From Acrocarpospora corrugata (GTDB lineage Bacteria > Actinomycetota > Actinomycetes > Streptosporangiales > Streptosporangiaceae): DNA of 64,000 nt. A program made the position numbers and the translations under genes. The stretch spans positions 74,296 to 138,295 of the forward strand of contig NZ_BLAD01000038.1 in NCBI RefSeq assembly GCF_009687845.1, given 5' to 3'. A model generated the notes under the pieces. That model saw only the letters and a list, made by a program, of their open reading frames with translations. It was not told the DNA's origin and searched no databases. This document shows, piece after piece, positions 6,953-23,165 of the stretch; within the stretch, counting starts at the first letter, position 1; each line of letters starts with the position of its first letter.

Positions 6953-8155
6953 TCAGCGGGCAGCGAGGTCGGCGAGGAGGACCGGAATGAGGCGTTCCTC
7001 CATGACGGCCCGGCCCTCGGTGGCCATCGCCTCCGACAAGGACGGATCCCACGGGCTGCCGGTCCGGCTGCCGGTGAGTGGGGTCGACTCGCCCAGCGCG
7101 AGGCCGGTCGTGTAGTCGGACGCGCTCATCCGCCAGGGCGTGCTACCTGCCGCCGCCACGATGCGCAGGCCCGTCCAGTCGAAGTCGGCGCGCCAGCGCA
7201 GCCGCGACCCGGCGGCCACGGCGGCGGCGAGCAGCTTGTGGCAGGCCGCGGACGGGATTCCCTCGGTGCAGACGAGCGCCGCCGACCGGTTCCCGAGTTC
7301 GGCCGCCGCCGCGCGGAGAACCGCGGGATTCTCACAGATGAAGAGTTCCTCGGCGACGGGGACGACAGGGTGCCCATTCTGCTGGTGAAGGGTGAGCCGG
7401 AACGGGATCCCAGACCGGGCGGCGTCGTTCAGCCACCGGGACACCACGTTGTCGCCCCGGGTCCGCACATTGAGCAGCAGCACCTGACTGGCCAGGTCGT
7501 CCACGATCACCCCGGCGGACTCCCACAGCGCCCGCTGTCCCGTCCGGCCGGAGGGTACGCCGGGCGAACCCGACCGGAGTGCGAGGGCGCGCAGCACCAG
7601 TGTCGCCAGCGGACTGCCCGGGGTGAGGGCCTTGGTGTCACCGGTGGCCGACTCGGCCAGGACGGGCAGCGGGACGAACCTCGCGGGCAGCTGATCGAGC
7701 ACGGCGGTCGCCTGCCGGATCAGGTGGGAGTCGCCCCGCCGGATCAGCCGGGTGAGCGTGCCGTCCTCGGTCATCGCCGACAGCCACGCGGCGAACCAGT
7801 CCTCCCCGGCCGACATCGCGGCTCCGGCCACCGCCAGCAGCGACTGCCTCGCGGAGACCTCCGCGGCGCGTTCCGCGGGCCGATCCCGGACCGGATCGCC
7901 CAGCCGGGCCAGCGTCTGGAGCAGACCCGCGCCGTGCATCCTGGTGAGGGCCTCGTCCAGGCCGGCCAGCGAGACCGTGAGCCGCTTGACGGTCTCTGGC
8001 CGGTACGTGCCGGTGATGCCGATGATCACCCGGCGTTCGGTCTCGGACGGGGCGGCCAAGCCGACGGAGCCGTCGAGCGCGCCTCCGGTCTGCTCCAGCT
8101 TGCGCCGTGCCGCCGCGAGGAGACGCCGCCAGCCGTCGCCGCGCAGCTCATCCAA
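6953..8155 (-). CDS. jetD: JetD-like TOPRIM nuclease subunit (TIGR02679, DUF2399)
   Basis: 400 aa. In Wadjet-type systems JetD is the TOPRIM nuclease that cuts plasmid DNA brought in by the JetABC SMC motor. The C-terminal third carries the TOPRIM signature: a glutamate in ALVCTEGIPS and DxD in WRADFDWTGLRI, so the active site looks intact. The N-terminal part (GITGTYRPETVKRLTVSL, LDEAL) matches the DUF3323-like region of the family. The start is a TTG at 8155, overlapping the jetC stop by 8 bases; no ATG fits this frame nearby. Last gene of the cassette. Family assignment is strong; activity is inferred. Confidence 0.88.
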   Translation of the reverse strand: MDELRGDGWRRLLAAARRKLEQTGGALDGSVGLAAPSETERRVIIGITGTYRPETVKRLTVSLAGLDEALTRMHGAGLLQTLARLGDPVRDRPAERAAEVSARQSLLAVAGAAMSAGEDWFAAWLSAMTEDGTLTRLIRRGDSHLIRQATAVLDQLPARFVPLPVLAESATGDTKALTPGSPLATLVLRALALRSGSPGVPSGRTGQRALWESAGVIVDDLASQVLLLNVRTRGDNVVSRWLNDAARSGIPFRLTLHQQNGHPVVPVAEELFICENPAVLRAAAAELGNRSAALVCTEGIPSAACHKLLAAAVAAGSRLRWRADFDWTGLRIVAAAGSTPWRMSASDYTTGLALGESTPLTGSRTGSPWDPSLSEAMATEGRAVMEERLIPVLLADLAAR

Positions 8156-11100
8156 CGGGGACCCGCCGCACGCCCGGGGATCCCAGCGCCGCGGTCAGGT
8201 CGCCGGTGTCGTCGGCGAGGAGTTCCGCCCCGTCCCACACCAGCAGCAGCGCGCTGACCGTGTGCTCCACCGGGGAGTGGGCCAGGTCGTAGTGGGCCGC
8301 CGCGGGCACCCCGGCGTGCGTGGCCCACAGGTCGTAACCTGTCATGAACAGGTCCAGATCGAACTGGGTGGCCAGGCCCATCAACTCGCTGCGCCCGGTG
8401 TCGTCCACCCCGGCGAACGCCTCGTCCAGGGCGAGCAGCCGGGGCGCGTCAGGGCGCGCCGAGTTGAGCATGGCGTGCGCGGCGGCGAACAGCGGCAGGT
8501 GCAGCGACACCGACTGCTCGCCGCCGGACAGCCGGCTGTGCTTGGCGCGGGTGAGGCGCTCCTCGTGCGTCGTCCCGGCGGCGGCGCCGGGCCGGACGAG
8601 CTGGAAGGCGAACTGCCGCCACCGCCGATAGTCGAGCACCTTGGTGAGCAGCTCCCGGTAGGGGAGCTCCCGCTCACGGGCCCGTGCGTTCTTGATCTGG
8701 GTGGCGAAGTGGCCGCGGATCCGGCTCAGCTCGTCCGGCCGGAGCCGGGCGGCGTCCGCGTCCAGCAGCCCGCAGACCGCCCGCTGCTCCTCCTCCAGGT
8801 GGTCGGCGAGCTGCCAGCTCACCCCCACCGTGGTCCCGGACGACATCCGGCGGGACCGCATCTCGGTGTTCATCCGCCGGATCAGGTCGCGCGCGTCCAC
8901 CGTGCGGTCGTGGATCTGCTGGGCCAGCCGGGTGAGCAGCGCGTCCTCCAGGATCCGCTGCTCGGACTCGCTGAGCAGCTGCTGCTGGTCCTTGCGGGCG
9001 GCGGTCATCTTCGCGGCGAACGCGCCCACCGGCAGCGGCCCGTCCTCGTCCGCGATCCGGACCACGATCACGCCGTCCGCGCCGTCCCACTCGGGCCGGT
9101 AGTCCTGACCGGCGGTGGCGAGCTGCGCCTGGAGATCGTCCAGCGCCTTGGTCAGCCGGGTGGTCGACTGTTTGAGCGAGATCTCGGTGGGGGTCAGATC
9201 GCGGGTCACGGTGCGGATGGCCTCGTGCACCGCGGTCACCGCGTCCGGCAGCCGCTCGCCCAGCCAGTCGGCCTTCTGCGCGGGCCAGGCCAGGCCGGGC
9301 GGGCATTTGAGCACGTCGAGCAGCTCCCGCTGGGCGAAGGGGGCCAGGGCTCTGGCGGTCTCCCGCTCCTCGACCGCCGCGACCCGCAGCGACTCCCGCG
9401 CGGCGGCCAGCCTGGCCTGCGCGGTGGCGTGCTCGGTGAGCGCCGCGCGCTCGGCGGCTCGCGCCGCCTCCGCCGTCCGCGACGCGGCGACGATCCCGGT
9501 CTCGGCGGTCTCGACCTCGGCCAGCACCTGGCCCGCCTCCGCGCCCATGGTCTGCCGGAGGGCGTCCAGCTTGGCGGCTTCCTCGGTGTGCCGCCGCCGC
9601 GCCCCCGACTCGGTCGACTCCGCCGCGGCCTCGTCGTCGGCCGCCGCCTCCAGCCGCTCCGTGCCCTCCTCGACCGCCTCGCGCTGCCTGGCCTCCTCGC
9701 GCCGCCGCCCGACCAGCGTGCCCGCGGTGGACTCGAAGCGCCGGACGGCCTCGGCCACCTCGTCCACCCGATCGGGGTCGAGGCTGTGCTCGGCCCCGAT
9801 CCTGCGCAGCGCCCGCTCGGCGGCGCCGCAGGCGGCGACGGCCTCGTCGTAGCCGCTCTGCGCGTCGTCGGCGGTCTCCCTGGTGGCGCGGAGCCGCCCG
9901 GCGGCTCCCTCGTGCTCGCGCAGCGCCGACACGATCGGGCCCGTCCTGGGCAGCGCGGCGCGGGCGGCGGCGATCGCCTCCATCGCCGATTCGGCCAGGG
10001 CGGCCCGCCGGTCGAGCTCGGTGACGGTCTCGGTCAGCACCGCGATCCGGGCGTCGCATTCGGCCAGCCGGGCGGCCCGGCGGCGGGCCCGGGCGGTCGC
10101 CCCGACATACTCGGCGTGCTCCTTGCGGTGCGCGCCGGCCTGGATGCCCTGCGTGAAACGGCCGTCGGGGGAGATCATCGGCCGGTCGTCGCCGGTGTGG
10201 CCGAGCGCGACGGACCGCAGGATCGCTGTGATCCGCTCGGCCGGAACCGGCGTCTCCTCCTCGGGGACCAGCAGGTCGGCCAGGCTGGACGGCACCGGGG
10301 GACCCGGAACCAGGTAACCCTCGGAATCCCCGGCGGCGACGGCCTCGGGCGCCGGGGTGACCCAGGCGTCCAGCAGGTTGGCCGCCTCGAGCGCCGCCTC
10401 GACGGCGGCGGCGTGCTCGTCGCTCACCTGGTCGGCGAAGCGGACCAGCCGCCAGAACGGGGCTCCGGCCCGGCCTTCGCGGTCCGCGGTGCGGGCCGCG
10501 AACGGGGGCGGGGCGTCATCACGCTCAGCCGCGATCTCCGCTCGCTCGGCCAGGACCCGGGCGCGCTCGTTCCCGGCCTCGGCCCGCTCGCCCTTGAGCC
10601 GGGCCCGGGCATCCCGCAGATCCTGTACGGCCTGCGCGCTCGCGGCCCCGAACACCGCGTCGAGACCGGGCGCGTCCGGCTCCCCGGCCTGCTCCAGCGC
10701 CCCGGCCAGCGACGCCACGTCGAACCCCAGCTCGGCGAGCACCCCATGGTGCCGCTCCGCCCAGCCGGCCAGCTGGGTTCTGGCCTCCCCGCGCGCGCTC
10801 TCCACCGCCTGGGCCGTCCCGGCCTCGGCCTGCTCCGCCTGGACGGCGGCGGCGAGGGCCCGATCGAGGGCGATCCTGGCCAGATCCCGGGTCTGCTCGG
10901 CCTTCTGCCCGGTCGCGATCGCGGCCCGGACCGCGCGCACATCACCGGTGCGCGTGGCCGCCCGGCCGCCCACCCGGTCGGCGAAGCCCGCGTGCTCCGC
11001 GTCGGCCGGGGCCCAGCCGATCCCCGCGGCGGCGGCCTCGTCGGCGAGTTCGGTGGCCGCCCGGGAGACCGCGCCCGCCAGCTCGGCCAGCACCCGATGC

Positions 11101-12200
11101 GCGGCGGCCAGTCCGGCGCGGGCCTTCTGGGTGGCGGCGGCGCGCCGGTCCAGCTCGGCCCTGGCCGCCCTCGCGGTGTCCGCGCACGTCCGCACCAGGC
11201 GCTCCAGGTCGCCGAGCTGTTCGAGGGCCTGGTAGGCGGCGCTGCCCTTGAGCTGCTCCAGCCTGGCCCGGAGCCCGGCCAGGGCGTCCTCGGCCGCCGA
11301 CAGGGTCTGCTCGGACTCCGCCTGGGAGCGCGCGGCGGTGGTCACGGCGGCGGCAGCCGTACCCAGCACGGTGCGGTGCGTCGTGACGTCGGCGCGGCGG
11401 CGGGTCAGCGCGTCGGCCGCCCAGCGGGAATGCGTGCGCAGGTAGGTGGTGTAGCTGGACAGGAACGACTGGGTCGCCTCGTCGGCCGCGACCAGGCCCT
11501 CCAGGGTGCGCTGCACCGTCTCCATGTCGTCGAAGGAGCGGGACGCCTCGGCGATCAGGTCGTCGTCGATCGGGCGCAGGCCGTCGGTGAGGGTGTCGGA
11601 CAGCTTGCCCGGATCCAGATTCTTGGCGAGCTGCGGGCGGCGCAGCGTCAGGATGAGGGTGATCAGCTGCTCGTACCGCTCGCGGCCGAGGCCGAACAGC
11701 CGCTGGTCGATCGCCTGCCGGTAGTCGGAGGAGGTGGCGGTGATCGCCTGCTCGCCCAGCTCCTCGGCGAGCTGCCTCTTGGTCATCGGCCGGTCGTCGG
11801 CGGTGAGCAGGGAGAAGTCCACGCCCACCCGGCCCTCGGTGACGAAGTGCCAGCGGACCGGGGCGTCCCGGTGGCGCTGGGCGTGCAGCCCGATCCCCAC
11901 CGTGACGGCCTCGCCGGTGTCGCGGTGCCGCAGCTCCAGCCAGACGTAGCCGAAGGCGCTGTCCTGCCCGCGGAAGAGCAGGTTGGACTTCATCGTCCGG
12001 TCCTCGGAGGCGAACGGGTTGAGCCGCTTGGGGTCGATCCGCCCGTCCAGCGCGAAGGGGAAGAGCACTTCCAGCGCCTTCGTTTTGCCCGAGCCGTTCG
12101 GTCCGCGCAGGATCAGCCAGCCGTTCGCGAAGGTGAACTCCTCGTCCCGGTAATCCCAGAGGTTGATGATCCCGGCCCGGGTCGGCACATACCGCGTCAC
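8148..12200 (-). CDS. jetC: JetC-like SMC ATPase (TIGR02680)
   Basis: 1350 aa. SMC/Rad50-like motor protein of Wadjet-type systems, expected to form the loop-extruding complex with JetA and JetB. Walker A GPNGSGKT is at residues 33-40. Long Ala/Glu/Arg-rich coiled coils fill the middle. The ABC signature LSGGEQ is near residue 1224 and Walker B LLALDEAF near 1255, so both ATPase halves are complete. Family landmarks include the N-terminal FANGWLILRGPNG and C-terminal FMTGYDLWATHAGV blocks. The GTG start at 12200 overlaps the jetB stop (GTGA). Length is normal for the family and no internal break is present. Confidence 0.93.
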   Translation of the reverse strand: MTRYVPTRAGIINLWDYRDEEFTFANGWLILRGPNGSGKTKALEVLFPFALDGRIDPKRLNPFASEDRTMKSNLLFRGQDSAFGYVWLELRHRDTGEAVTVGIGLHAQRHRDAPVRWHFVTEGRVGVDFSLLTADDRPMTKRQLAEELGEQAITATSSDYRQAIDQRLFGLGRERYEQLITLILTLRRPQLAKNLDPGKLSDTLTDGLRPIDDDLIAEASRSFDDMETVQRTLEGLVAADEATQSFLSSYTTYLRTHSRWAADALTRRRADVTTHRTVLGTAAAAVTTAARSQAESEQTLSAAEDALAGLRARLEQLKGSAAYQALEQLGDLERLVRTCADTARAARAELDRRAAATQKARAGLAAAHRVLAELAGAVSRAATELADEAAAAGIGWAPADAEHAGFADRVGGRAATRTGDVRAVRAAIATGQKAEQTRDLARIALDRALAAAVQAEQAEAGTAQAVESARGEARTQLAGWAERHHGVLAELGFDVASLAGALEQAGEPDAPGLDAVFGAASAQAVQDLRDARARLKGERAEAGNERARVLAERAEIAAERDDAPPPFAARTADREGRAGAPFWRLVRFADQVSDEHAAAVEAALEAANLLDAWVTPAPEAVAAGDSEGYLVPGPPVPSSLADLLVPEEETPVPAERITAILRSVALGHTGDDRPMISPDGRFTQGIQAGAHRKEHAEYVGATARARRRAARLAECDARIAVLTETVTELDRRAALAESAMEAIAAARAALPRTGPIVSALREHEGAAGRLRATRETADDAQSGYDEAVAACGAAERALRRIGAEHSLDPDRVDEVAEAVRRFESTAGTLVGRRREEARQREAVEEGTERLEAAADDEAAAESTESGARRRHTEEAAKLDALRQTMGAEAGQVLAEVETAETGIVAASRTAEAARAAERAALTEHATAQARLAAARESLRVAAVEERETARALAPFAQRELLDVLKCPPGLAWPAQKADWLGERLPDAVTAVHEAIRTVTRDLTPTEISLKQSTTRLTKALDDLQAQLATAGQDYRPEWDGADGVIVVRIADEDGPLPVGAFAAKMTAARKDQQQLLSESEQRILEDALLTRLAQQIHDRTVDARDLIRRMNTEMRSRRMSSGTTVGVSWQLADHLEEEQRAVCGLLDADAARLRPDELSRIRGHFATQIKNARARERELPYRELLTKVLDYRRWRQFAFQLVRPGAAAGTTHEERLTRAKHSRLSGGEQSVSLHLPLFAAAHAMLNSARPDAPRLLALDEAFAGVDDTGRSELMGLATQFDLDLFMTGYDLWATHAGVPAAAHYDLAHSPVEHTVSALLLVWDGAELLADDTGDLTAALGSPGVRRVPVG

Positions 12201-13561
12201 TTAACCTCGCTCGCCTCGAAGAGAGTGTCCTGTTGCCGCTCGGCGCGGCGGGCCCGGGGCCTGACTTCGGCCGTGGCGCCCCGGTAGCGGGCCAGCAGCG
12301 GGAGCGCGAGCACGCCGCCCTCGACCCTGACGACCAGGCGCAGCGCGACGAGCAGCCGCACCGCCTCGCGCAGCAGCCGGTCGGGATCGCCGCGCCAGGC
12401 GAGGGAGAAGGCCGTCCCGTAGGTCTCCATGAGCTGCGTCATCGCGGCGCGCAGCCAGGCGTCGGTGACGAACGGATAGGCCTGCGCCTCGGCCGGTTCC
12501 CGCTCGGCGGTCTCGGCCTCGCTCAGCTCCGCCAGGACCCCCTTGACCGGCAGCCCGGCGTCGATGCTGGCCGCCAGCGTCTCGGTGCGCTCGGCCGACG
12601 TCGGCGCGGGCAGCATCGAGGGCCGCGATGTCTCCACCCGCGCGGCGATCCGCGCCGCCAGCAGCAGCGCCGCCTGGGACGGGGTGCCACCGCTGGGGAA
12701 GCGCAGATCGGACAGGCGTCCCGAGGTGTCGACGAGCGCCACCCCTTCGGCGCGGCGCTCCACGGCCTGCCCGGTCAGCCGCTCCAGGTCCTCGGCCAGG
12801 CCGGGGTGGCGGAGCTGGCCGCGCAGGGATTCCCCGGCGTCGGCGTAGTAGACCACCGGGTGTTCGAGCACCAGCCGCCGCGCCCGCCGGGCCGCGGCCT
12901 CGCGCACCCGGTGCACGCCCTGGGCGACACCGCGGTCGTGGTCGAGCAGCCCGGTCACCGAGCTCATGTGCTGCAGCACCCGGCTCGGCTGGTAGATCGC
13001 GAAGACGACCTCGCGGTCGATGTCGTACAGCGCCTCGGCCTGGTCGGGACTGCTGACCCAGTCGGCGGCGGAACCGTCGGCCAGGGTCAGCGCGCCGCGC
13101 TCGGCCAGCCAGGTCACCGCGTCGACGAAGGCGTCCCGGTCGGGCTTGCGCTCGGTGTCCAGGCCGAGCCCGTCGATCCGGGCGGCGTCCGCGGCGACCG
13201 CGTCCGCCAGCTCGCTGAGGGCGGTCTGGGGGCCGGACCGGCCGAGCGTGGCGAGCGTGAGCACCAGATAGGCGTAACGGCGGCGGTCGAACGGCCGGTC
13301 CGTCCTGGTCCGCGCCGGGCGCGTCACGTCCAGCTCGTCCTGCGCGCGGAGCAGCCGCGCGGTGTTCGGCGTGGTCACCAGGCGGTAGCCGAGCACCTCG
13401 TGCAGGTCGGTCCTGAGCTGGCCCGCCCAGCGGCGGATCAGGGGCAGCGCGGCCCGGTTCGGGTGGGCGTCGGTGATCAGCGCGTGGCTCAGCAGCAGCC
13501 GCACCGCCCGCTGGTAGTCGGCGAGCTCCAGCGAGCTCACCTGTTCGGCGACCCCGCCCAT
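12197..13561 (-). CDS. jetB: JetB-like subunit (TIGR02678, DUF2398)
   Basis: 454 aa. Belongs to the TIGR02678 family, the non-SMC (kite-like) partner in this version of Wadjet. Supporting blocks are LELADYQRAVRLLLSHALIT, LPLIRRWAGQLRTDLHEVLGYRL, DRPFDRRRYAYLVLTLATL, the hydrophobic YDIDREVVFAIYQ region and HPVVYYAD. The C-terminus is basic. Its ATG at 13561 overlaps the jetA stop by one base (TGATG) and its stop overlaps jetC (GTGA), so the three genes are translationally coupled. Confidence 0.9.
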   Translation of the reverse strand: MGGVAEQVSSLELADYQRAVRLLLSHALITDAHPNRAALPLIRRWAGQLRTDLHEVLGYRLVTTPNTARLLRAQDELDVTRPARTRTDRPFDRRRYAYLVLTLATLGRSGPQTALSELADAVAADAARIDGLGLDTERKPDRDAFVDAVTWLAERGALTLADGSAADWVSSPDQAEALYDIDREVVFAIYQPSRVLQHMSSVTGLLDHDRGVAQGVHRVREAAARRARRLVLEHPVVYYADAGESLRGQLRHPGLAEDLERLTGQAVERRAEGVALVDTSGRLSDLRFPSGGTPSQAALLLAARIAARVETSRPSMLPAPTSAERTETLAASIDAGLPVKGVLAELSEAETAEREPAEAQAYPFVTDAWLRAAMTQLMETYGTAFSLAWRGDPDRLLREAVRLLVALRLVVRVEGGVLALPLLARYRGATAEVRPRARRAERQQDTLFEASEVK

Positions 13562-15126
13562 CAGGACACCTCCAGCGTGACGCCGGACAGGTGCAGGCGG
13601 CCGTGCACGGTGCGCACGGAGGTGCTGCCCTCGCAGGGGCGCAGCGTCAGCCGCACGCCGTGGGCCGAACCGGTGGCGGTGACCCGCCGGCTGGCCGGCA
13701 CCCTGGCGGTGAGCGCTTGGTCGAGCAGGCTCAGCAGGGCCTTGGTCTCCGGCTCGTTCAGCACCCGGTCATAGGGGCCTTCGGCCGCCAGGGACGCCGC
13801 CGCGTCGCGCCGCTCCCTGGCCAGCTTGAGCTGGTCGGCGCGGAGCCGCTGCCGCTGGGCGTCGTTGCGCTCGATCCGCGCGGTGGTCCCGGCCATCCGC
13901 GGTTCCCGGCCGGACTCCACCAGGCCGCGGGCCAGCCGCACCGGCGCGGCGTCCCACCAGGACAACCTCGCGGGGATCAGCTCGGGGTCCTCGTGCGGGA
14001 CCGCGATGTGCCGCGGGCCGCCCAGGCCGAAGGCCGCCTGGAAGAGCCCGTGCGCCGCGTCCTCGTCGGGGCAGGAGGCGAACCACTGGGCCAGATGCCG
14101 GAGCTGGCTCTCCCGGCTGACACCCCCGCGGCGCGCCTCGGTCACCCGCCTGAGCAGGGCCAGCACGTTCGCGATCGCGGTGACGGTCGCGTTCTGCAGC
14201 CGTTCCGCCTCGCTGCGGGAGTCCCGGGCGGCGCGGCCGTGACCGGCGCCGAACCAGTGCGTCAGGCCGGACCAGCGCTGCCGCCAGTCCGCCTCCCGGT
14301 CGCCTGGCGCCCGGAAGAGCCGGTCGTCGGCCGCCGCGGCCCGCGCGATCAGCGCGTCCACCCCGGTGTCGGCCACGTCCTGGACGGCCTGGGCCAGCCG
14401 GGGCGTGAAGCGGGCCAGCTCCGCGGTGAACTCCCGCATGTGCGTGAGCAGCGCGTCCTTGTGGGAGAGGAACACCTCGGGTCGCGTGTCGTTGGTGCGG
14501 GCCAGGTCGCCCAGCATCAGATAGAACCGGGCGGCCCGCTGCGCCATGTCGCCGAGCACCTGGTCCAGCCGGCTGAGCTTGCGGTAGATCTCGTCGCCGT
14601 GGCCGGCCCTGTTGGCCTCGGCCAGCGCCTCCAGGTCGGCCAGAATGTCAGGAAATATCAGCCTTGATAGCTGGGCGTCCTCCAGGGTCGCCCCGAGCAC
14701 GTCCTCGACCGCCCGGTACGCGCGATAACCGGCCTGAGTGAACTGATACACGTAGTGCCGGTTGCGGTATTCGGCGAGGCTGGCCGCGCGGGTCCCGTCG
14801 TAGCTGCGATCGAGCAGCCGCCACTCGTTGAGCGAATCCAGCAGGGACTGCACGTCGCCGACCTCCGGGCAGCCCGGGTGCTCCTCGCGGAGCTGGTTCA
14901 GCAGGCCACGGGCACTGGCCGCGTGCAGCAGCACCTGATAGTTGGCCCGGCCCCGGTCGAACGCCCGCAGCAGCCACAGGTACTCCTCGCGCTTCTCGGC
15001 CGCCGCGAAGTGGAACAACCGCATCCGGTCGTCCAGCGTGAACGCGTCGATCCCGAACGTGTCCGCCGTGCTGGCGGGGGCATCGTCCGCAGGAGCGGCC
15101 CCGAGGGGAGGATTGGCGAGGTCCAT
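13561..15126 (-). CDS. jetA: JetA-like subunit (TIGR02677, DUF2397)
   Basis: 521 aa. TIGR02677-type protein, the kleisin-like member of the Jet complex. Characteristic blocks: RLFHFAAAEKREEYLWLLRAFDR, VGDVQSLLDSLNEWRLLDR, RNRHYVYQFTQAGYRA and a long helical C-terminal half with LAQWFASCPDEDAAHGLFQAAFGLG. The frame is open far upstream to 16638, but that extension is antisense-frame noise inside the helicase gene. ATG 15126 gives the expected family length. 113 bp separate it from the helicase stop, the only sizeable gap inside the cassette, so a separate promoter there is possible. Confidence 0.9.
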   Translation of the reverse strand: MDLANPPLGAAPADDAPASTADTFGIDAFTLDDRMRLFHFAAAEKREEYLWLLRAFDRGRANYQVLLHAASARGLLNQLREEHPGCPEVGDVQSLLDSLNEWRLLDRSYDGTRAASLAEYRNRHYVYQFTQAGYRAYRAVEDVLGATLEDAQLSRLIFPDILADLEALAEANRAGHGDEIYRKLSRLDQVLGDMAQRAARFYLMLGDLARTNDTRPEVFLSHKDALLTHMREFTAELARFTPRLAQAVQDVADTGVDALIARAAAADDRLFRAPGDREADWRQRWSGLTHWFGAGHGRAARDSRSEAERLQNATVTAIANVLALLRRVTEARRGGVSRESQLRHLAQWFASCPDEDAAHGLFQAAFGLGGPRHIAVPHEDPELIPARLSWWDAAPVRLARGLVESGREPRMAGTTARIERNDAQRQRLRADQLKLARERRDAAASLAAEGPYDRVLNEPETKALLSLLDQALTARVPASRRVTATGSAHGVRLTLRPCEGSTSVRTVHGRLHLSGVTLEVS

Positions 15127-15239
15127 GGTCCCGTCCGGCTCAAGAAGGAAGCTGTAAAGACCCCTCCAGCATGGCGTACCCCACCGGTAACTCAGGCCAG
15201 GCGGCGGTATCCGGAGAGCGACGTTATCGATCCTCAACG

Positions 15240-18200
15240 TTACCGATTCGTGGCGAGCGGGCCTCCGGCGGTGAGGGCGCCCAGGACCTGGAGGGCCGCG
15301 CCTCGGCTGAGCTGGTCGTGGTGCCGCTCGTTGTGGCGGGTGCGCAGGCAGCCGTAGCAGGAGGTCTCGGCGCCGCAGTCGCAGGAGGCGACCCGCTTCA
15401 GCGCGGCTTCGGCCACCAGGTCTAGTGACTCGGCGACGCGCAGCGCGCTGCCGGCGCCGCCGGGCACGGTATCGAAGATCACCAGGCCGGTCCGGCTGTC
15501 GGAGCCGGGATTGATCGCGCCGTCGATGTCGTTGCGGCTGATCTCCAGTCCGTCCGCGGCCCCTTCGAGCAGCGCGTACAGCGTGGACCGCCAGTGGTCG
15601 CCGACGCCGGGCGCGTCGAACCGCAGCTCCAGGATGTCGGTCTCGAAGCTGTGCGCCAGGGAGCGCCACCGCAGCGGCCCGGTGCACTCGGTCCGCCGGA
15701 GCGGGCTGAGGTGTGACTTGGCGGGCCTGCCGTGATTCGGCGTGCCCCAGCCGCACCAGTCGCAGATCAGGAAGCCGCTTCCGGACGGCCCTTCGGAGAG
15801 CACGACCAGCCGCCCCCGGGAGCCGGAACGGCACCAGACGGAGGATCCCCCCGGGGACGCCCAGCGGCGTTCCGCGAGTTCCTCGCCCAGGGAGACGATG
15901 TGGGTCGCGCCGTGCCACGAGCCCTTCGGCGGGGCGGTGCCCGGTTTGGCGGTCCGGTGGTCGGCGACGAAGCCGAACTCCGGCACGTAGTACTGCCGCA
16001 ACGCTCCCTCGGGCGCGTTTCCGCAGGCGGGGCAGGCCCCCGTCAGGGTCTCGTCGCCCTCCCGGTAATGCTGGCAGGTCCGGCAGACGGTGTAGTGCCT
16101 GCTGATCAGCTCCCGGCCGGGCAGCCGGTAGACGCCGGCCGAGCGCCAGAGCACCCCGCCGGCCACCACCTCGGCTCCCGGCGCGTACTCGTAGATCGCC
16201 GAGGACAGGTCGCGGCTGAGCTCCAGCCGGGCCCCCACCTGGCTCTCGCAGTGCGCGGTGCGCAACTCCACGCTGTCCACCGGGAAGCCGTACTTGGGCA
16301 GCACGTTCCTGTTCGCCAGGTAGCCGATCAGGGAACGGCGGGTGACGGTGTTGATGGTCCGCTCGTAGCGGGCGGCCAGATCGCTGCGGCGGCCGTCGAA
16401 CGCCTCCCGGCGGCGTTCCTCGAACCCTTCGACGTCCTGGGCGAGCTCCTGCCGCACCTGTTCCAGCAGCGCGCACAGTTCGGTGACCCAGGCGCCGGTC
16501 TCCAGGCCGAGTTCGGTCCGCACCGAGGCGGGCAGGACCCGGCGCAACGAGGCGAGCACGTCCGGGGGGACCGGCGTGAGGAACTGCCTGACCTGGGAGC
16601 TCGCCCCGGACAGGAAGAAGTCGCCGGCCGTCTTCCATACCGTGCCCGAGGTCTGCCTGGAATGGCGGAAGAAGGCGGCCAGCGCGACGGAATGGGCGTG
16701 CCGCCGGTCGATTCTGGCGTTGCCGAGCGGCACGTACGGCGCCCGCACCTGACCGGCGATCATCGTTTCCGGCTCCTGATACCGGGACAGGTCGTGCGAG
16801 CGCCGCTGGGCGTAGGTCAGCACCAGGGCCGCCGAGTCCGCGCGCCGCCCCGCCCGCCCGGCCCGCTGAATGTAGTTGGCCGTGGTCGGCGGCATGTTGC
16901 GGAGCATCACCGCCTGCAGTTCGCCCACGTCCACGCCCAGCTCGAAGGTGGTCGAGCAGGACAGGACGTTCACCTCGCCGCGCACGAACCGCTGCTGGAT
17001 GCCGGCCGCCTCAAGCCCGGTCCACTGGGCGGTGTGCTCCTTGGCCAGCAGCGGCACCGGCGTCATCGCCTGGTAGAGCACCCGGTGGTGGTCGTCGGCG
17101 TCCGGCTCGGCCGGGGCCAGCGAGCCCAGGCAGCCGAGTGTGGGGCAGACCCCGCGCACCGAGGTCGCGCTGACCCGCCGGCACAGGCCGCACCGGTAGC
17201 TCTCCCCGGCGGCGGACAGCTTCAGCCAGGCGTGGTCGAGCTGATGGACCTGGCCCAGTTTCGGCAGCGCGGCCGAACTCAGCCAGCCCTCCCGCAGGGA
17301 GGTGAGCAGTCGCCAGCACCCGTCCAGGATCTGCCGCGCGTCCGCCGCCCCTGAGCCGGCGGCGGCGAGCACTCGGCGCAGATAGTCCAGCCGCCGGTTG
17401 ACGCCGCGCGTCGGCAGCCAGCTCAGCACCTTCAGCTTCGCCTCCGCGCCGTCGCGCCGCACGTAGATGGGCCCCCGCCGGGGATCGAACAGCTCATCGC
17501 GCGGATCGACCTGCTCGGGCATGGTCAGCGCGCCCTGCTGCCGGAGGGATCGGGCCAGCTCGCCCAGGAGCAGCCAGCACTCCGCCGCGCTCAGGCCCAG
17601 GTCCAGCAGCGGCGCGGGCAGCCGCCAGCCGGGCTCACGGTCCAGCTCCACCCGGAGCAGCCCGAGTCCTTCCAGGGACTGGCGTTCGTCCATGGCCACC
17701 AGCTCCCGCATCACCCACAGCGCCACCGTGCGGCCGCGCTGCTGGCGGGAGTCCCGGCGGCCGAACACCCCGGCCCGCCCCGCCGCCGCGACCACCTCGT
17801 GCACGAGGTCGTCCACGGTGGCGGCCTCGTCGGCGGCGGCGCGCCGCAGCCCGTCGAGGATCAGCCGCCGCTGCTGGATCTGGGCATAGCTGGACTCCAG
17901 ATACGGGGCGAAATACGCGGCCGCCTGGCGGCTGTCGCTGAACGTCAGCAGCTTGCGGCCGCCGCCCGGCCGGTCCTCGAACTCGGGCGCCGGGGGCAGC
18001 GCCTGGTAGAGGGCGGTGGCCAGGACCGCCGCCGCCGCCTCGTTGCCGCTCTCGAACTGGCGGATCAGGCCGGCGCCGCGCGCCCCGCAGGCCAGGCAGC
18101 CGCTGGGCGAGCTGGCCCGCGTCTTCAGCCGCCGCACCGGGCGCAGCTGGGTCTCGCCGCAGCCGTCCCGGTCGCATCGGCTCCGCCGTACCGGATGGAG

Positions 18201-19802
18201 AGCCCCGCACCGGCCGCACAGGAACGCGTCCTGCGCCTCGGTCTCGGGCAGGTCCTCCAGGGTCTCGTCGTCCTCGTCCGTCATTTCCGGGGTGTCGCCG
18301 AGCAGCAGCCAGACGCGGGAGTCGTCCCGGCTCACCCGCGGGCTGAACAGCTGGCCCGCGCCGGACTGTTCCACCGCGCCGATCAGGTGCACCGCCCCGC
18401 ATCGCTTGCAGGCGCCGAACTCGAAGACCGCGCCGGCACAGGCAGGGCAGGTCTCGTGGCGGCCCAGGGCGACATGAGGCCCGGCGAGGCAGGCGAACGC
18501 GCCCTCGGTGGCGCGGGCGAACAGATGGTAGCGGGCCGACAGGATCGCGCTCCCGGTGCCGTCCCTGACCTTCCCGCCGACCGCCACCAGCGCGGCCAGG
18601 CCCTCCTCCGGCTCATCCTGGCCGCCGAAGACCAGCTGGGCCAGGTCGGCGAACGGCCGCGGGCCGCCGGAGAGGGCGCCGCGCAGGGTGGCCATGGCCT
18701 GCTCGTGGGCCAGCGCGGCCCCGGCGCCGGGCAGGCCGGACCGGCGGACCAGCTCGCCGTGCGGGTCCTCGCTCACCGCCAGCTTCCGGTAGTCGGCCGC
18801 GGTCAGCGGACCCCAGAACGGGCCGGATGGCATCGCCACCCGCGCGGCGGTCACCAGGTCCTGGCGGGCCGGGTCGCCGGGAACCCACTCGAAGGGCACG
18901 TCGAACAGTTTGGTGGCGAAGTCCATGACCGCGCCCGGCTCGTCGCCCACGGTGGCGCTGGTGGCGATGGCCTGGAGCGTACGGTCCCCGGCCACCCGAT
19001 CGTGCAGGCGGCGCAGCAGCATGCCGAGCTCCTCGGCGCGGGCGCCGTCGTACACGTGGGCTTCGTCCAGGACCACGAACCGCCACCGGTCGGCGGGCTC
19101 GAAGAGCTCCAGGTCGGCCGGGCGAAGCAGTAGATACTCCAGCATCGCGTAGTTGGTGAGCAGCAGATGCGGGGGAGCCGCCCGCATCTCCTCCCGGCTC
19201 AGCAACTCGTTCGGCAGCCTGGGCGTGCCCGGGTTGAGCTCCTCGAACAGGGCCGCCCCCTGCTGGGCGCGCTCCGGCGTGTCACCGGTGTAGCGGCCGA
19301 AGGTGATCCGCGGTACCGCCGACAGCAGCTCGCGAAGGCGTTTGAGCTGGTCGTTGGCGAGTGCGTTCATCGGGTAGAGCAGCAGCGCCCGCACCCCGGG
19401 GGACAGCCGCCCCTCGGCGATCAGCGCGGACAGGATCGGCAGCAGGAAACTCTCCGTCTTGCCCGAGCCAGTGCCGGTGGCGACCACCAGGTGCCGCCCG
19501 GTGGCGGCTTTCCGCAGCGCCTGCTCCTGATGCAGGTACAGCGGCCGGTCCAACGGGAGCGCGGGGCTGCCCAGGACGGCGAACGCCGGATCGAGCACAC
19601 CCTCGCCGATCAGCTCACGGAGGGTCGCCCCGGTCCGGTACGGCGGGGTCGCCTCCAGCAGCGGCCCCTTGCTCAGCAGCGGGCTGGCGGAGATCTCCGC
19701 GGCCAGCGCCTCGGCGATCGCCGGGTCCCGCACCGGCAGCAGGGACCGGAGGTAACGCCGGTACGTGCCGGTGATGAGCGCGCTCGTGGCGAGGGGATCC
19801 AT
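15240..19802 (-). CDS. DEAD/DEAH helicase with C-terminal DUF1998 Cys cluster
   Basis: 1520 aa superfamily 2 helicase related to YprA/MrfA and Lhr-type enzymes. Walker A ATGTGSGKT at 108-116, LLYPMNALAND (Ia), DEAH at 246-249 and SAT motif (ATSATVGDE). The second RecA domain has STTFELGVDVGEL and QRAGRAGRR. Several zinc-ribbon-like pairs of CxxC lie near residues 451-475, 528-550, 575, 873-890 and 1240-1260. The C-terminus holds the DUF1998-type CDCG...CYGC cluster near 1480. Starts at ATG 19802, only 3 bp after the upstream stop. The context with Jet genes points to defence; a repair role, as for MrfA, is the alternative. Confidence 0.9.
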   Translation of the reverse strand: MDPLATSALITGTYRRYLRSLLPVRDPAIAEALAAEISASPLLSKGPLLEATPPYRTGATLRELIGEGVLDPAFAVLGSPALPLDRPLYLHQEQALRKAATGRHLVVATGTGSGKTESFLLPILSALIAEGRLSPGVRALLLYPMNALANDQLKRLRELLSAVPRITFGRYTGDTPERAQQGAALFEELNPGTPRLPNELLSREEMRAAPPHLLLTNYAMLEYLLLRPADLELFEPADRWRFVVLDEAHVYDGARAEELGMLLRRLHDRVAGDRTLQAIATSATVGDEPGAVMDFATKLFDVPFEWVPGDPARQDLVTAARVAMPSGPFWGPLTAADYRKLAVSEDPHGELVRRSGLPGAGAALAHEQAMATLRGALSGGPRPFADLAQLVFGGQDEPEEGLAALVAVGGKVRDGTGSAILSARYHLFARATEGAFACLAGPHVALGRHETCPACAGAVFEFGACKRCGAVHLIGAVEQSGAGQLFSPRVSRDDSRVWLLLGDTPEMTDEDDETLEDLPETEAQDAFLCGRCGALHPVRRSRCDRDGCGETQLRPVRRLKTRASSPSGCLACGARGAGLIRQFESGNEAAAAVLATALYQALPPAPEFEDRPGGGRKLLTFSDSRQAAAYFAPYLESSYAQIQQRRLILDGLRRAAADEAATVDDLVHEVVAAAGRAGVFGRRDSRQQRGRTVALWVMRELVAMDERQSLEGLGLLRVELDREPGWRLPAPLLDLGLSAAECWLLLGELARSLRQQGALTMPEQVDPRDELFDPRRGPIYVRRDGAEAKLKVLSWLPTRGVNRRLDYLRRVLAAAGSGAADARQILDGCWRLLTSLREGWLSSAALPKLGQVHQLDHAWLKLSAAGESYRCGLCRRVSATSVRGVCPTLGCLGSLAPAEPDADDHHRVLYQAMTPVPLLAKEHTAQWTGLEAAGIQQRFVRGEVNVLSCSTTFELGVDVGELQAVMLRNMPPTTANYIQRAGRAGRRADSAALVLTYAQRRSHDLSRYQEPETMIAGQVRAPYVPLGNARIDRRHAHSVALAAFFRHSRQTSGTVWKTAGDFFLSGASSQVRQFLTPVPPDVLASLRRVLPASVRTELGLETGAWVTELCALLEQVRQELAQDVEGFEERRREAFDGRRSDLAARYERTINTVTRRSLIGYLANRNVLPKYGFPVDSVELRTAHCESQVGARLELSRDLSSAIYEYAPGAEVVAGGVLWRSAGVYRLPGRELISRHYTVCRTCQHYREGDETLTGACPACGNAPEGALRQYYVPEFGFVADHRTAKPGTAPPKGSWHGATHIVSLGEELAERRWASPGGSSVWCRSGSRGRLVVLSEGPSGSGFLICDWCGWGTPNHGRPAKSHLSPLRRTECTGPLRWRSLAHSFETDILELRFDAPGVGDHWRSTLYALLEGAADGLEISRNDIDGAINPGSDSRTGLVIFDTVPGGAGSALRVAESLDLVAEAALKRVASCDCGAETSCYGCLRTRHNERHHDQLSRGAALQVLGALTAGGPLATNR

Positions 19803-19805
19803 GGA

Positions 19806-21296
19806 TCAATCGTTGCAGAGCCACGGATCTGGGGCGGCTGGTACCGCGGGAGAAATCACCGCCAGCGGGATGAGCCGCCCGTGCCGCCGGACCGCCAGAA
19901 GGGCCTGCCCGTGCGCGGCCACGGTGTCGAGCACGCGCCGCAGGGGATACTCGCCGTTCGCGTGCGGAGTCAGTTCCTGAACGAGGACGCCGCCGGCCCG
20001 GACCTCGATGGGTGGTCGCTCCCGGACGCCCGGAATCTCCAGGCGCAACGATCCGAGCTCCTCCGGCGTCAGCCGGAGCGGGGCGGTATGCCACTCCCGG
20101 CCGGCCAGGACCCGCATGTGCGGCGGGGTGACGGTCAGGGCCAGGACCCGGTCACCCGCCACGCAGGTGATTCCGCGGGTGATCTCCGTCCGGGTGAAGG
20201 CGAGCGCCTGCGGCGCCACCGTGAGACCGGGCACCGTGCCGAACAGGGCGTCCACGGGCGTCGGCCCGCCGTCGTCGAAGAGCCGGACCGGCGGGTCGTA
20301 CCGTGCCGAGAGGCCCTCGGCGAGGGTGACGGTCTCCCGCGTGCCCCGGCCGCGCGCGTCCCTGACGTCGACCGTGAAGGTGCCCAGGAGCGGGCGGGGG
20401 AGCCGCGCCCAGAGGTCGGCGGGATCGGCTGGGGCCGGCCGGGCACCGGCCGGCTGCACGGTGGCCAGCCAGGTTCCCGCCGGCAGCCGCAGGGCGGGCG
20501 GCGCGGCCAGCACCGGGGAGCCGCCGGGCCCGGCCAGTCCTGGCGTCGGCTCCTCGATCAGCAGGCGGGGCCGTACCCTCCCCCGCACCGGGTGCCGCGG
20601 GCCGTCCGCCAGGGCCAGCCAGGCGGCGTTCGCCAGGGAGATCTGCGTCAGCCGCCAGCCGTCCCAGCCGGACGGCAGGAAGCTCTCGGCGATGATCCGG
20701 ATCGGGATGTCGGCGATCAGGTCGCGGTCGCCGGGGTGGGCCACCCAGACGGCGGCTTCCGGCAGTTCGCCGGGCAGGTGCCGCCCGTCCTCGCCGAAGA
20801 CGAGCAGGGTCTCCTCCCCCGGGTGGGTCAGCGCCGTCCCGCCGCGCCGGACTCCCGCCCCGAAGGGGTCGAGGTCGAGCGGGCTGGGGACCTCCGGGGC
20901 GGTTCCATGGCCGGCGTGCATCATGATCGAACGTTTGACGTCAGGATCGGCCGGCAGGCCCAGGACGCGCAGCGCGTCCAGAAACGCCGTGCCCCACCTG
21001 GCCGGGCTGCCCCGATGGCGGGAGGCGGCCCACCAGCGCGGCCAGAAGGCGTCCGCCGCGCCGTGGCGGGCGGCCACCCCGGCGACGCACCCCGCGACAC
21101 ACGCGGGCCAGCGGGTGGCGAGTTCCCGGTGGCCGACCCGACGGCAGGCCTCGCCCAGGGCGTCGGCCGCCGCGTCGATCGTCTCCCCGGCCAGGCCGGC
21201 CTCGATCACCAGCGACACGCGGCGCAACTGCCAGGCCCAGGACCGTTCGAGCAGGTCGAGGAGGGCGGTGGCGTCGAACGTCCGGGGGCCGGGCAC
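19806..21296 (-). CDS. uncharacterised protein paired with the DUF1998 helicase
   Basis: 496 aa, not recognised. Residues 1-130 are predicted helical and Trp/Arg-rich (LLDLLERSWAWQLRRVSLVIE, FWPRWWAASRHRGS). A middle block has PIRIIAESFLPSGWDGWRL. The C-terminal 300 residues are Pro/Gly/Val-rich and look like beta domains (TFTVDVRDARGRGTRETV, LALTVTPPHMRVLAGREW, VRAGGVLVQEL). No transmembrane segment and no obvious catalytic motif. GTG start at 21296, 6 bp after the kinase stop; its stop is 3 bp from the helicase start. It therefore probably works with the helicase, perhaps as a specificity or adaptor subunit. Confidence 0.8.
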   Translation of the reverse strand: MPGPRTFDATALLDLLERSWAWQLRRVSLVIEAGLAGETIDAAADALGEACRRVGHRELATRWPACVAGCVAGVAARHGAADAFWPRWWAASRHRGSPARWGTAFLDALRVLGLPADPDVKRSIMMHAGHGTAPEVPSPLDLDPFGAGVRRGGTALTHPGEETLLVFGEDGRHLPGELPEAAVWVAHPGDRDLIADIPIRIIAESFLPSGWDGWRLTQISLANAAWLALADGPRHPVRGRVRPRLLIEEPTPGLAGPGGSPVLAAPPALRLPAGTWLATVQPAGARPAPADPADLWARLPRPLLGTFTVDVRDARGRGTRETVTLAEGLSARYDPPVRLFDDGGPTPVDALFGTVPGLTVAPQALAFTRTEITRGITCVAGDRVLALTVTPPHMRVLAGREWHTAPLRLTPEELGSLRLEIPGVRERPPIEVRAGGVLVQELTPHANGEYPLRRVLDTVAAHGQALLAVRRHGRLIPLAVISPAVPAAPDPWLCND

Positions 21297-21302
21297 GCGG
21301 CG

Positions 21303-23165
21303 TCAGTGCCAGAGGGTGATCCGGGTGCCCTGCGGGACAGCTCCCACGGGGTTCTGTGAGATCACCCGCCGCCCTCCGACGACCTTGCGGACCTTGACCT
21401 CGAAGCCGGCCGATTCGAGTTCGCGGCGTGCGTCGTTCACGTCCTTGAAGCGGACGTCGGGGACGTTGACGAAGTCGGGGGCCGCGATGGACGGGTCGCG
21501 CTCCCAGGGCCAGAACGGCGTGTCCGGGCCCTTTGACACGGTCATGCAGATCTTGGTGGTGGGTTCCATCTCGGCGCCGCCCGCGGGTTCCTGGGCGATG
21601 ACCGTGCCGGGGGCCGCGTCGTCGGTGACCTCGTTGACGCAGTCGCCGGGGTAGCCCTTGGTCTGCAGGAACTGCTGGGCCTGGTCGCGCATCATGCCGG
21701 TGACGTCCGGCGCGAGCAGTCCGACGCTGATGACCAGGACGACGGAGGAGCCCTTGCGGACGCGTTTGCCGACGACGGGGTCGGAGCGGATCGCCAGGCC
21801 GCGGGCGATCTTGTCGCTGGCGGACTTGCGGACGCGGGAGACGGTGAGCCCGGCTTCGGAGATCTTCAGGCGGGCGTCGGCCTCGCTGGAGTTCTCGACC
21901 TTCGGGACGACCACCATCTCCGGTCCTGCCGAGGCGATGATGGTGACCAGGGAGCCCTTCTCGACCTCCACGCCCTCCGCGGGCTGGGTCTCCAGGACGA
22001 TGTCCTTGGCCACCTTGCCGTCGAACCGGGGTTCGCCGATCTTGACCTGGAAGCCGAGTTTGCGTGCCGCCTGCTCGGCCAGTTTCACGTTCTGCTTGAG
22101 CAGGTCGGGCACCTTGGCGTACCGCTCCTGGGAGAAGTACCAGCCGCTGAAGGCGATGCCGGCCAGCATGAGCAGGGCGAGGCCGGCGACGAACCAGACC
22201 GGGCGGAGGTTCCGCTTGACGGGGGCGGCGGGGGGCAGGTCCAGGCTGGGCTGGACGGTGGTGTGCTGGACGCCGGGCGGGAAGGTGGGGACGGAGTGCT
22301 GGCCGCTGACGCGGGCGGCGGCGAGGCCGCGGTGGGCCTCGACGGCGGCGACGAGCATGGCGGCCGCGTCGTTGGGGCGCTGGGCGGGGTCCTTGGCGGT
22401 GGCGGAGCGGACCAGCGCGTCCAGCGCGGGCGGGGTCTCAGGAGCGAGCGCGGAGGGGGCGGGGACGCTGTCGTGGACGTGCCGGTAGGCGACCGACATT
22501 GGCGACTCGCCCTGGTACGGCTGGTGCCCGGTCAGCAGTTCGTACAGCACGATCCCGGCCGCGTACACGTCCGCGCGGACGTCGGCGACGCCGGCGGTGA
22601 CCTGCTCGGGCGACATGTACGCGATGGTGCCGATCATGATGCCGGACTTGGTCTGGTTGCTCGCCTCGATCGCGCGGGCCAGCCCGAAGTCGACGACCTT
22701 GACCCGGCCGTCCTCGGTCAGCAGCACGTTCTCCGGCTTGACGTCGCGGTGGATCAGCCCGGCCTGGTGGGCCGCGCCGAGGGCGGCCAGCACCGGGATC
22801 ATGATCTCCAGGGCTTCCCTGGCGGGGATCCGGCCGCGCTCGCGCAGCACGTCGCGGAGGGTCTTGCCGGGGAAGTACTCCATCGACAGGTAGACGTGGT
22901 CCCCGTCGGTGCCCTGGTCGAAGACGTGCACCACGTTGGGGTGGGACAGGGAGGCGACGGATTTCGCCTCGCCGATGAACCGCCGGACGAACTGCGGGTC
23001 CTCGGCCAGTGAGCGGTGCATCACCTTGACGGCGACCATGCGGTCGAGCCGGATGTCCAGAGCCAGGTAGACGGAGGCCATGCCGCCCCGGGCGATCCGG
23101 GACTCGACGCGGTAACGCCCGTCGAGCGTCTGCCCTACGAGTGGGTCGGTTAGCGTCGTGTCCAC
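21303..23165 (-). CDS. PASTA-domain Ser/Thr protein kinase (PknB/PknL-like)
   Basis: 620 aa receptor-type kinase. The N-terminal cytoplasmic kinase has GxG loop IARGGMASVYLA, catalytic HRDVKPENVLL, DFGLARA and activation/APE region IAYMSPEQV. A proline-rich linker follows, then one transmembrane helix near residues 330-352 (VWFVAGLALLMLAGIAFSGWYF region). About four extracellular PASTA repeats follow (VPDLLKQNVKLAEQAARKLG, VPKVENSSEADARLK and so on), expected to sense peptidoglycan fragments. GTG start at 23165. The Rv2175c-like protein, ids and metF homologues nearby recall the M. tuberculosis pknL neighbourhood, so a PknL-like role is plausible. Confidence 0.93.
   Translation of the reverse strand: MDTTLTDPLVGQTLDGRYRVESRIARGGMASVYLALDIRLDRMVAVKVMHRSLAEDPQFVRRFIGEAKSVASLSHPNVVHVFDQGTDGDHVYLSMEYFPGKTLRDVLRERGRIPAREALEIMIPVLAALGAAHQAGLIHRDVKPENVLLTEDGRVKVVDFGLARAIEASNQTKSGIMIGTIAYMSPEQVTAGVADVRADVYAAGIVLYELLTGHQPYQGESPMSVAYRHVHDSVPAPSALAPETPPALDALVRSATAKDPAQRPNDAAAMLVAAVEAHRGLAAARVSGQHSVPTFPPGVQHTTVQPSLDLPPAAPVKRNLRPVWFVAGLALLMLAGIAFSGWYFSQERYAKVPDLLKQNVKLAEQAARKLGFQVKIGEPRFDGKVAKDIVLETQPAEGVEVEKGSLVTIIASAGPEMVVVPKVENSSEADARLKISEAGLTVSRVRKSASDKIARGLAIRSDPVVGKRVRKGSSVVLVISVGLLAPDVTGMMRDQAQQFLQTKGYPGDCVNEVTDDAAPGTVIAQEPAGGAEMEPTTKICMTVSKGPDTPFWPWERDPSIAAPDFVNVPDVRFKDVNDARRELESAGFEVKVRKVVGGRRVISQNPVGAVPQGTRITLWH

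Follow-up and report, generated by a model that had tools for sequence, protein, structure and literature searches.

Wadjet systems, loop extruders of the structural maintenance of chromosomes (SMC) type that act on plasmids, are ordinarily built from four genes, and the question raised by the locus described here is why two further genes should stand directly upstream of such a set and what they might do there. The locus lies in a stretch of 64,000 nucleotides from Acrocarpospora corrugata (GCF_009687845.1, contig NZ_BLAD01000038.1), hereafter the window, where six intact genes occupy positions 6953-21296 of the minus strand in the order partner, helicase, jetA, jetB, jetC and jetD. A first-pass annotation of this DNA had described the same six minus-strand genes, and the open reading frame (ORF) coordinates agree with the spacing it gave: 3 bp between partner and helicase, 113 bp between helicase and jetA, then three overlaps, which from the coordinates measure 1, 4 and 8 bases. 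Our answer, which we regard as rather probable, is that this is a composite defence locus, in which a Druantia III-like sensor-helicase module became attached once upstream of a type II Wadjet and has been inherited in that form since. This reading draws on a single clade of jet-linked helicases, matched divergence of the proteins, a shortened partner, jet loci from which both genes of the pair are missing, and jetABCD without the pair in other lineages.

Taking the Jet proteins as the point of entry, JetA was found in 196 of the 297 genomes of the window's taxonomic family with a clear step in identity, since 16 genomes carry a match of at least 70 % and the weaker matches, among those listed, lie at or below 50 %. 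The partner is present in 12 of these 16 genomes (it is absent from G079, G112, G013 and G161), and in nine of the 16 all six genes recur in the order seen in the window. When 84,980 genomes were scanned with a JetA alignment, 262 relatives emerged, and the best 80 of them were read; several of these records are the same genomes as in the family set. Near-branch loci, defined by a JetA identity of at least 65 %, were taken as evaluable when at least 4 kb of upstream sequence was available, and the neighbourhood count suggested by the first-pass annotation returned partner and helicase before jetA at 12 of 41 such loci among the best 80 of 262, with the partner alone at none. These pair-bearing loci belong to Nonomuraea, Microtetraspora, Sphaerimonospora, Planomonospora, Actinacidiphila, Catenulispora, Frankia/Parafrankia and a metagenome-assembled genome (MAG), the Frankia type (L132, Frankia sp. 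CIT1; L133, Parafrankia soli; L131, Frankia nepalensis) having the pair and the jet genes without jetD. When the best 80 of 262 scan loci were combined with the window, L033, L044, L076 and L175 to give 85, 51 had JetA at 65 % or above and 46 of those at least 4 kb upstream; the helicase is present at 16 of the 46, all 16 with the partner, and L110, where the end of a helicase lies at the contig edge, was counted as without. The gap between partner and helicase ranges from 3 to 183 bp and that between helicase and jetA, by match ends, very roughly from 70 to 330 bp. As the six-gene order is conserved and co-inherited in several families, the helicase and the partner are not chance neighbours of the jet genes. 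None of 13 sampled family loci with a JetA of about 45 % identity has the pair (at L092 the upstream sequence spans just 2.8 kb) and, L109 (Actinacidiphila soli) apart, it is likewise missing from all 23 evaluable near-branch loci labelled Streptomyces.

The same linkage can be read from the other side. A search with the partner through the 297 family genomes found it in 41 at E<=0.001, mostly as a match split over two parts of a frame of about 1100 residues, and its surroundings were read in 39 of the 41, omitting G000, the genome that contains the window, and G074, whose sole match covers 85 residues. Jet genes follow the pair in eight of the 39 (L033-L036, L044, L045, L046 and L056), or nine counting the window; in 25 the helicase is present and jet is not adjacent; in four (G001, G002, G152, G176) the contig stops inside the helicase; and at L057 and L071 no helicase was seen near the partner. 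Elsewhere in G002 a helicase end directly precedes JetA (L078), which makes it the tenth family genome with linkage, and in G001 (L079) no helicase was found in the 680 bp before JetA. A search of 394 genomes of the class gave 19 with a close match to the first 500 residues of the helicase (E<=1e-90), nine of them outside the family: four (G312, G419, G428 and G517, all of one taxonomic family) have partner, helicase and JetABC, three (G330, G553, G589) have stand-alone pairs, and in G437 there are 8.6 kb after the helicase without jet, the contig ending before any partner; the ninth, G533, is taken up below. The helicase-partner family thus also exists as a stand-alone, Druantia III-like pair. 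Such pairs (25 family loci, L174, L180 and L181) share with the jet-linked ones the gene order and helicases that are 54-70 % identical, and differ in having no adjacent jet and a long partner in 27 of 28 cases. The partner measures 480-728 residues at 13 of 13 jet-linked loci and 1077-1334 residues at those 27 stand-alone loci, the exception being L062, with 720 residues and a 621-bp gap to the helicase.

Several stand-alone loci have features of their own. At L063 a distant JetC (37 %) is encoded on the opposite strand, roughly 5 kb away. Three genes lie between partner and helicase at L037 (3920-16497), L040 (3362-20000) and L043 (2699-15373), and at least two were called at L039 (3616-16213); those of L040 encode proteins of 536 and 297 residues without a family and one of 681 residues combining HSP70 with a NYN RNase, and in L037 and L040 a PglW-like kinase comes after the helicase. 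These four loci perhaps represent a larger system. In other families of the phylum (L189-L192) a partner of 1087-1238 residues and a helicase of 1578-1666 residues (37-48 % identical) are found in the same order.

Trees place the jet-linked helicases together. A quick helicase tree recovers 15 jet-linked sequences as one clade against 25 stand-alone family rows and places three rows cut by contig ends within that clade; an LG+G4 tree with 18 of the 25 stand-alone rows (7 omitted) separates the 15 from the 18 with 100/100 support and in 200 of 200 bootstrap trees. Over 15 loci, distance correlations are 0.942 for helicase and JetA, 0.865 for helicase and JetB, 0.937 for partner and helicase, 0.82 for partner and JetA, and 0.887 for JetA and JetB, and for each of them 0 of 5000 permutations was as high. 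Among four close pairs of loci the ratio of nonsynonymous to synonymous substitution rates (dN/dS) is below 1 for every gene measured, which indicates purifying selection; in each comparison the partner has the larger ratio (0.34-0.48, against 0.13-0.22 for the helicase), and JetABC give 0.33-0.57 in two Frankia-type pairs without JetD and 0.08-0.28 in two JetD-bearing pairs, values that come from few pairs and a simple method, both Frankia-type pairs including L133.

The jet genes themselves tell the complementary history. In a tree of concatenated JetABC from 58 loci, the 17 helicase-bearing loci (two of them with an incomplete helicase) are spread over several subclades with 7 changes, three loci with remnants or too little sequence not being counted, and a single clade of these 17 was rejected (approximately unbiased test, p-AU 8e-63) for a group chosen after the tree had been seen. 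At L076 a deletion scar is preserved: read against the partner and helicase genes of L033, the first ~36 bases of the partner gene are fused to the last ~70 of the helicase gene, with ~5.9 kb lost. L098 retains a helicase remnant, and in L111 some 230 bp before jetA match L109, the helicase is absent and a 49-bp piece elsewhere matches the stretch just after the L109 helicase; no remnant was detected in L097, L099, L130, L136, L101 or L124. Since the pair-bearing jet loci do not form one clade and a deletion scar exists, one joining followed by repeated loss of both genes is the simplest history; a scenario in which a co-diverging pair was gained several times would be less simple. In L076 (10814-12354, in G161) the reading frame of JetA is itself broken into two pieces in different frames, by decay or by assembly error.

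Some observations concern mobile DNA and pair-less loci. No mobile copy was found: phage contigs scanned with the JetA and long-partner alignments held no relative, and plasmids gave only distant matches to the helicase (six records at 27-31 %); JetA at 71-73 % identity occurs on seven Streptomyces plasmids of 0.38-2.35 Mb. Another gene stands 206-287 bp before jetA at six of 30 pair-less loci read (L116, L118, L122, L124, L125, L126), all Streptomyces; it is related across the six, measures 1054-1081 residues in five and is a 137-residue piece in L118. In L124 its product is a DEAD-box helicase whose closest models are those of HamB, which places a different superfamily 2 (SF2) helicase in the same slot.

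The proteins of the window identify both halves of the locus. JetA (13561-15126, 521 residues, DUF2397), JetB (12197-13561, 454 residues, DUF2398), JetC (8148-12200, 1350 residues, an SMC-type ATPase with SbcC_Walker_B) and JetD (6953-8155, 400 residues, DUF3323 and DUF2399, the presumed TOPRIM nuclease subunit), all on the minus strand, exceed the curated cut-offs of TIGR02677, TIGR02678, TIGR02680 and TIGR02679, respectively. JetA is listed inside a longer frame (13561-16638); its ATG was read at 15126, and translation from there is free of stops. JetC has GPNGSGKT at 33 and LSGGE at 1224, and JetD has DFD at 324; the Walker B region of JetC was matched by a Pfam model at 1187-1277, a simple pattern search having given none. 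PADLOC labels the four proteins JetA2-JetD2, which is Wadjet type II, and type III is excluded, as all PADLOC Jet matches are of the JetX2 kind save one weak JetC1. Judged by gene content, the locus is a predicted plasmid-restricting Wadjet of type II. It shares with that type the A-B-C-D order, JetX2-kind proteins in one operon and SMC plus TOPRIM-type motifs, and differs in that two extra conserved genes stand upstream in part of the one branch considered here, some members of which have no adjoining JetD. Mostly type I Wadjet has been studied, and types II and III may recognise other substrates (PMC10586767). The same genome has a second, distant JetABCD on another contig (G000:C84:12126-20098, in L072), 28-36 % identical to the first.

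The helicase (15240-19802, minus strand, 1520 residues) is assigned by Pfam, PADLOC and motifs to the YprA family of SF2 helicases and is DruE-like. It has the Pfam domains DEAD, Helicase_C and MZB, the last being the zinc-binding DUF1998, at 1409-1486, and the protein stops 34 residues later; its motifs are GTGSGKT at 110, DEAH at 246, QRAGRAGR at 979 and nine CxxC. The top PADLOC models are DruE3 (E 5.5e-173) and DruE1 (E 2e-169), and the nearest solved chain is 9tu7 (2108 residues, E 1.9e-78). No nuclease domain was recognised beyond MZB, and C-terminal phospholipase D (PLD) nuclease domains of the E. coli Druantia III kind are absent. With Druantia type III it shares a partner gene followed by a YprA-type DUF1998 helicase with DruE3 as best PADLOC model, and with the 'III-B' branch it shares the lack of a recognised nuclease domain after DUF1998, a state most frequent in a III-like branch of Druantia (PMC12458937). 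The same source places YprA helicases in ARMADA, BRIGADE, TALON, DISARM, Dpd and Druantia contexts, and DruE has been described as a helicase that engages DNA containing single-stranded regions and loads on 3' single strands (PMC13192584). Most of what the first-pass annotation said of these proteins has stood: the TIGR02677-02680 assignment, the SMC and TOPRIM motifs and the intact SF2 helicase with Cys clusters were all recovered. Its type III label has to be replaced by type II, and its DUF1998 helicase does carry that domain and is not an unplaced protein, as the PADLOC models put it nearest to DruE.

The partner (orf496; 19806-21296, minus strand, 496 residues, GTG start, from the ORF list) gave no match in Pfam, NCBIfam, PADLOC or PHROGs, and a sequence search against the PDB and PHROGs found no relative. 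Profile comparison with hhalign aligns the short partner to residues 14-700 of a 1105-residue long form (probability 100, E 7e-119, 569 columns), with a middle stretch and the last ~400 residues missing; on this alignment we regard orf496 as a shortened member of a larger family that is ~1100 residues long in stand-alone systems. An AlphaFold model of the window partner (predicted local distance difference test 86.8, predicted TM-score 0.53) is helical in its N-terminal domain (about 1-130) and continues with successive beta domains of immunoglobulin (Ig)-like type (about 140-480). Foldseek returned many Ig-like multi-domain proteins with TM-scores of 0.10-0.18 by query length (50 listed), and these low scores support the Ig-like fold class and no specific relative. 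A helical N-terminus with Ig-like domains is what the model would have in common with DruH of Druantia type III, which has been described as containing Ig-like domains and as a likely sensor (PMC13192584); the partner differs from DruH in its length (480-728 against ~1100 residues), in having no PADLOC DruH match and in being joined to jetABCD. The DruH models gave no match for orf496 (E<=0.01), six relatives (E<=0.1) or four distant ones (E<=1), and bridging to DruH in PADLOC through the more distant L189-L192 gave none either. Directly beyond the partner gene, a Ser/Thr kinase gene with four PASTA repeats (21303-23165) ends 6 bp before it. This gene was rejected as a seventh member: a search of 17 loci (15 distinct), at some of which the upstream sequence is limited to ~2 kb, found it at the window alone, with a single weak 54-residue match elsewhere.

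The strongest competing explanation is that the two halves, one Druantia III-like and the other a type II Wadjet, are independent systems that travel as a block, with additive or synergistic effects and no joint mechanism, which we hold to be a real possibility, somewhat less than even. It is favoured by the occurrence of each half alone (pairs at 28 loci, jet without the pair in Streptomyces), by the loss of the pair as a block while jet stays, and by a promoter-like element before jetA. In the window this element, CGCCATGCTGG, lies at 15166-15176 on the minus strand, within the 113-bp gap between helicase and jetA and 40 bp ahead of the jetA ATG, with one mismatch to the shared pattern. The CGGCANNCTGG form, with its two-letter choices, is matched exactly before jetA at 26 of 48 near-branch loci (shuffle mean 0.23, maximum 2), a pattern picked by eye from the same loci, whose rows are related and whose starts are nominal. 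The element occurs at loci with and without the pair, including most Streptosporangiaceae and Streptomyces loci, and six of seven Frankia-type rows are without it, the seventh match lying inside the gene. Because jetA has its own promoter-like element, the six genes need not form one transcript. Tandem arrays of separate systems are also on record (PMC12458937): the Zorya II - Druantia III - ARMADA II arrays of E. coli, for which synergy was shown (PMC12458937, PMC13192584), resemble our locus in that a YprA helicase system is co-inherited with another system, and differ in that the partner systems are other than Wadjet. What speaks against mere co-travel is that a single jet-linked helicase clade tracks Jet across several families, and that the fixed order, short gaps and short partner at every jet-linked locus measured exceed a chance neighbourhood.

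A second alternative starts from the Frankia type and holds that the helicase pair replaces or bypasses JetD, so that JetABC and helicase would be the working unit and JetD optional; we consider it improbable. With two JetD queries, JetD follows JetC at 45 of 71 evaluable loci, made up of eight of 12 with helicase, 25 of 26 near-branch loci without it, and 12 of 33 at lower identity. The four helicase-bearing loci without JetD downstream, L131, L132 and L175 of the Frankia type together with L121, a MAG from their subclade, retain the pair wholly or in part and would fit a bypass, as would the drafts G428 and G312, where a TIGR02679 search of four Frankia-type genomes found no such protein. 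Against it, the other two genomes, G419 and G517, carry a JetD at another locus, eight of the 12 helicase loci keep theirs, the higher JetABC dN/dS of the JetD-less Frankia-type pairs may mean decay, and a very divergent JetD could escape the two queries. Moreover, JetD is also missing at 21 of the 33 lower-identity loci and at L136, all without helicase, so its loss is not tied to the helicase. JetABC without a detected JetD is common in its own right, at L138, L145, L149, L163 and 17 further lower-identity loci, mostly of Rhodococcus type, and also at L080, L081 and L083. L138 and L163 have the same chromosomal gene nearby (cysS/mshC homologue-like, by eye), so JetABC at loci of that kind may be a housekeeping SMC complex.

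Very improbable is a third alternative, in which the pair would be nothing more than ordinary Druantia type III(-B) and its nearness to jet meaningless. In its favour, DruE3 is the best PADLOC model, and the order and size of distant stand-alone pairs (e.g. 1124 and 1666 residues) come near those of M. smegmatis DruH-DruE (1132 and 1667 residues; PMC13316683), whereas none of 11 partners scanned matches PADLOC DruH, the jet-linked partner is about half-length, and a single jet-linked clade tracks Jet.

Several observations weigh against the composite locus. The pair is missing at 29 of the 41 evaluable near-branch loci among the best 80 of 262, and of 34 loci below 65 % JetA identity, 30 were evaluable (55-61 %) and none has the helicase. 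Three loci are exceptions to the linkage: in G176 (L077) a 4.2-kb interval lies between the helicase end and JetA, and two of its three predicted genes encode an enoyl-CoA hydratase and a methyltransferase; G152 (L041) has a helicase of the jet clade in a genome, 83 % complete and with the contig ending within the helicase, whose sole JetA match is 44 %; and in G533 (L179) the helicase match ends after 317 residues with 2.8 kb of contig remaining. L062 and L057 (770 residues, no helicase or jet found, outside the length comparison) are short partners at loci without jet, so shortening is not confined to jet-linked loci. PADLOC DruH models miss the partner, and DruH was compared through those models only. 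The stand-alone helicases in the trees come from the window's family only, with L174, L180, L181 and L189-L192 left out, and agreement of distances alone cannot separate co-inheritance from shared species history. If one mismatch is allowed, the CGGCANNCTGG-form element is present at 39 of the 48 near-branch loci, against a mean of 6.2 and a maximum of 14 after shuffling. Finally, the two accounts of DruH-DruE disagree: in M. smegmatis both proteins are needed and interact by pull-down (PMC13316683), and in E. coli no stable interaction was seen by mass photometry (PMC13192584).

These points also limit what survives of the proposal, made in the first-pass annotation, that helicase and partner are extra subunits. 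The conserved, co-inherited order in several actinobacterial families speaks for it; that they belong to Wadjet generally is contradicted by their absence from the 30 of 30, 13 of 13 and 23 loci described, and the promoter-like element of jetA in most loci and the stand-alone life of the pair family count further against it. The annotation had taken helicases lying mostly away from jet genes as evidence against its view: those outside one clade do lie away from jet, and those of that clade are jet-linked where the contig is long enough, with the exceptions just given.

The composite locus, if correctly read, suggests a division of labour. The partner with its Ig-like domains, probably a sensor of infection or foreign DNA, would sense a trigger on entry of a phage or plasmid; the YprA/DruE-type helicase, presumably of 3'-5' polarity, would load on and open the invading DNA; JetABC, a loop-extruding SMC motor of the kind described as acting on plasmids (PMC12647877, PMC12287153), would act on DNA opened in this way; and JetD would cut it. 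We infer that the pair may open or mark invading DNA on which Wadjet alone would not act, and the module would in this manner widen Wadjet action beyond small circular plasmids. Joint action of both halves on one DNA substrate seems to us close to an even call, and direct physical contact between them is doubtful. A bolder, tentative version, which we think unlikely, is that the pair shed its effector end, the C-terminal ~400 residues of the partner, on joining jet and now serves as the front end of the JetABC motor, where it would supply recognition and DNA opening, in Frankia-type loci even without an adjoining JetD. If this hybrid were true, Wadjet would be directed by a protein sensor and not by DNA shape alone. 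The pair is present in one and absent from the other of close relatives, in the matched sets L109/L111, L123/L097 and L033/L076 (the last with the broken JetA frame), and the contribution of the module is thereby directly testable.

Both halves are of known kinds, and what is new here is the addition of a Druantia III-like module to a type II Wadjet. No description of Wadjet joined to such a helicase was found in the open-licence literature by title or abstract start; the words Wadjet, SMC, JetA and TOPRIM have no occurrence in the main text of PMC12458937, nor Wadjet and SMC in that of PMC13192584. The locus suggests a union of two known immune systems into a single unit in some soil actinobacteria, and it would add, beside the Zorya-Druantia-ARMADA arrays, another case of a YprA helicase coupled to a second immune system, in this instance an SMC motor.

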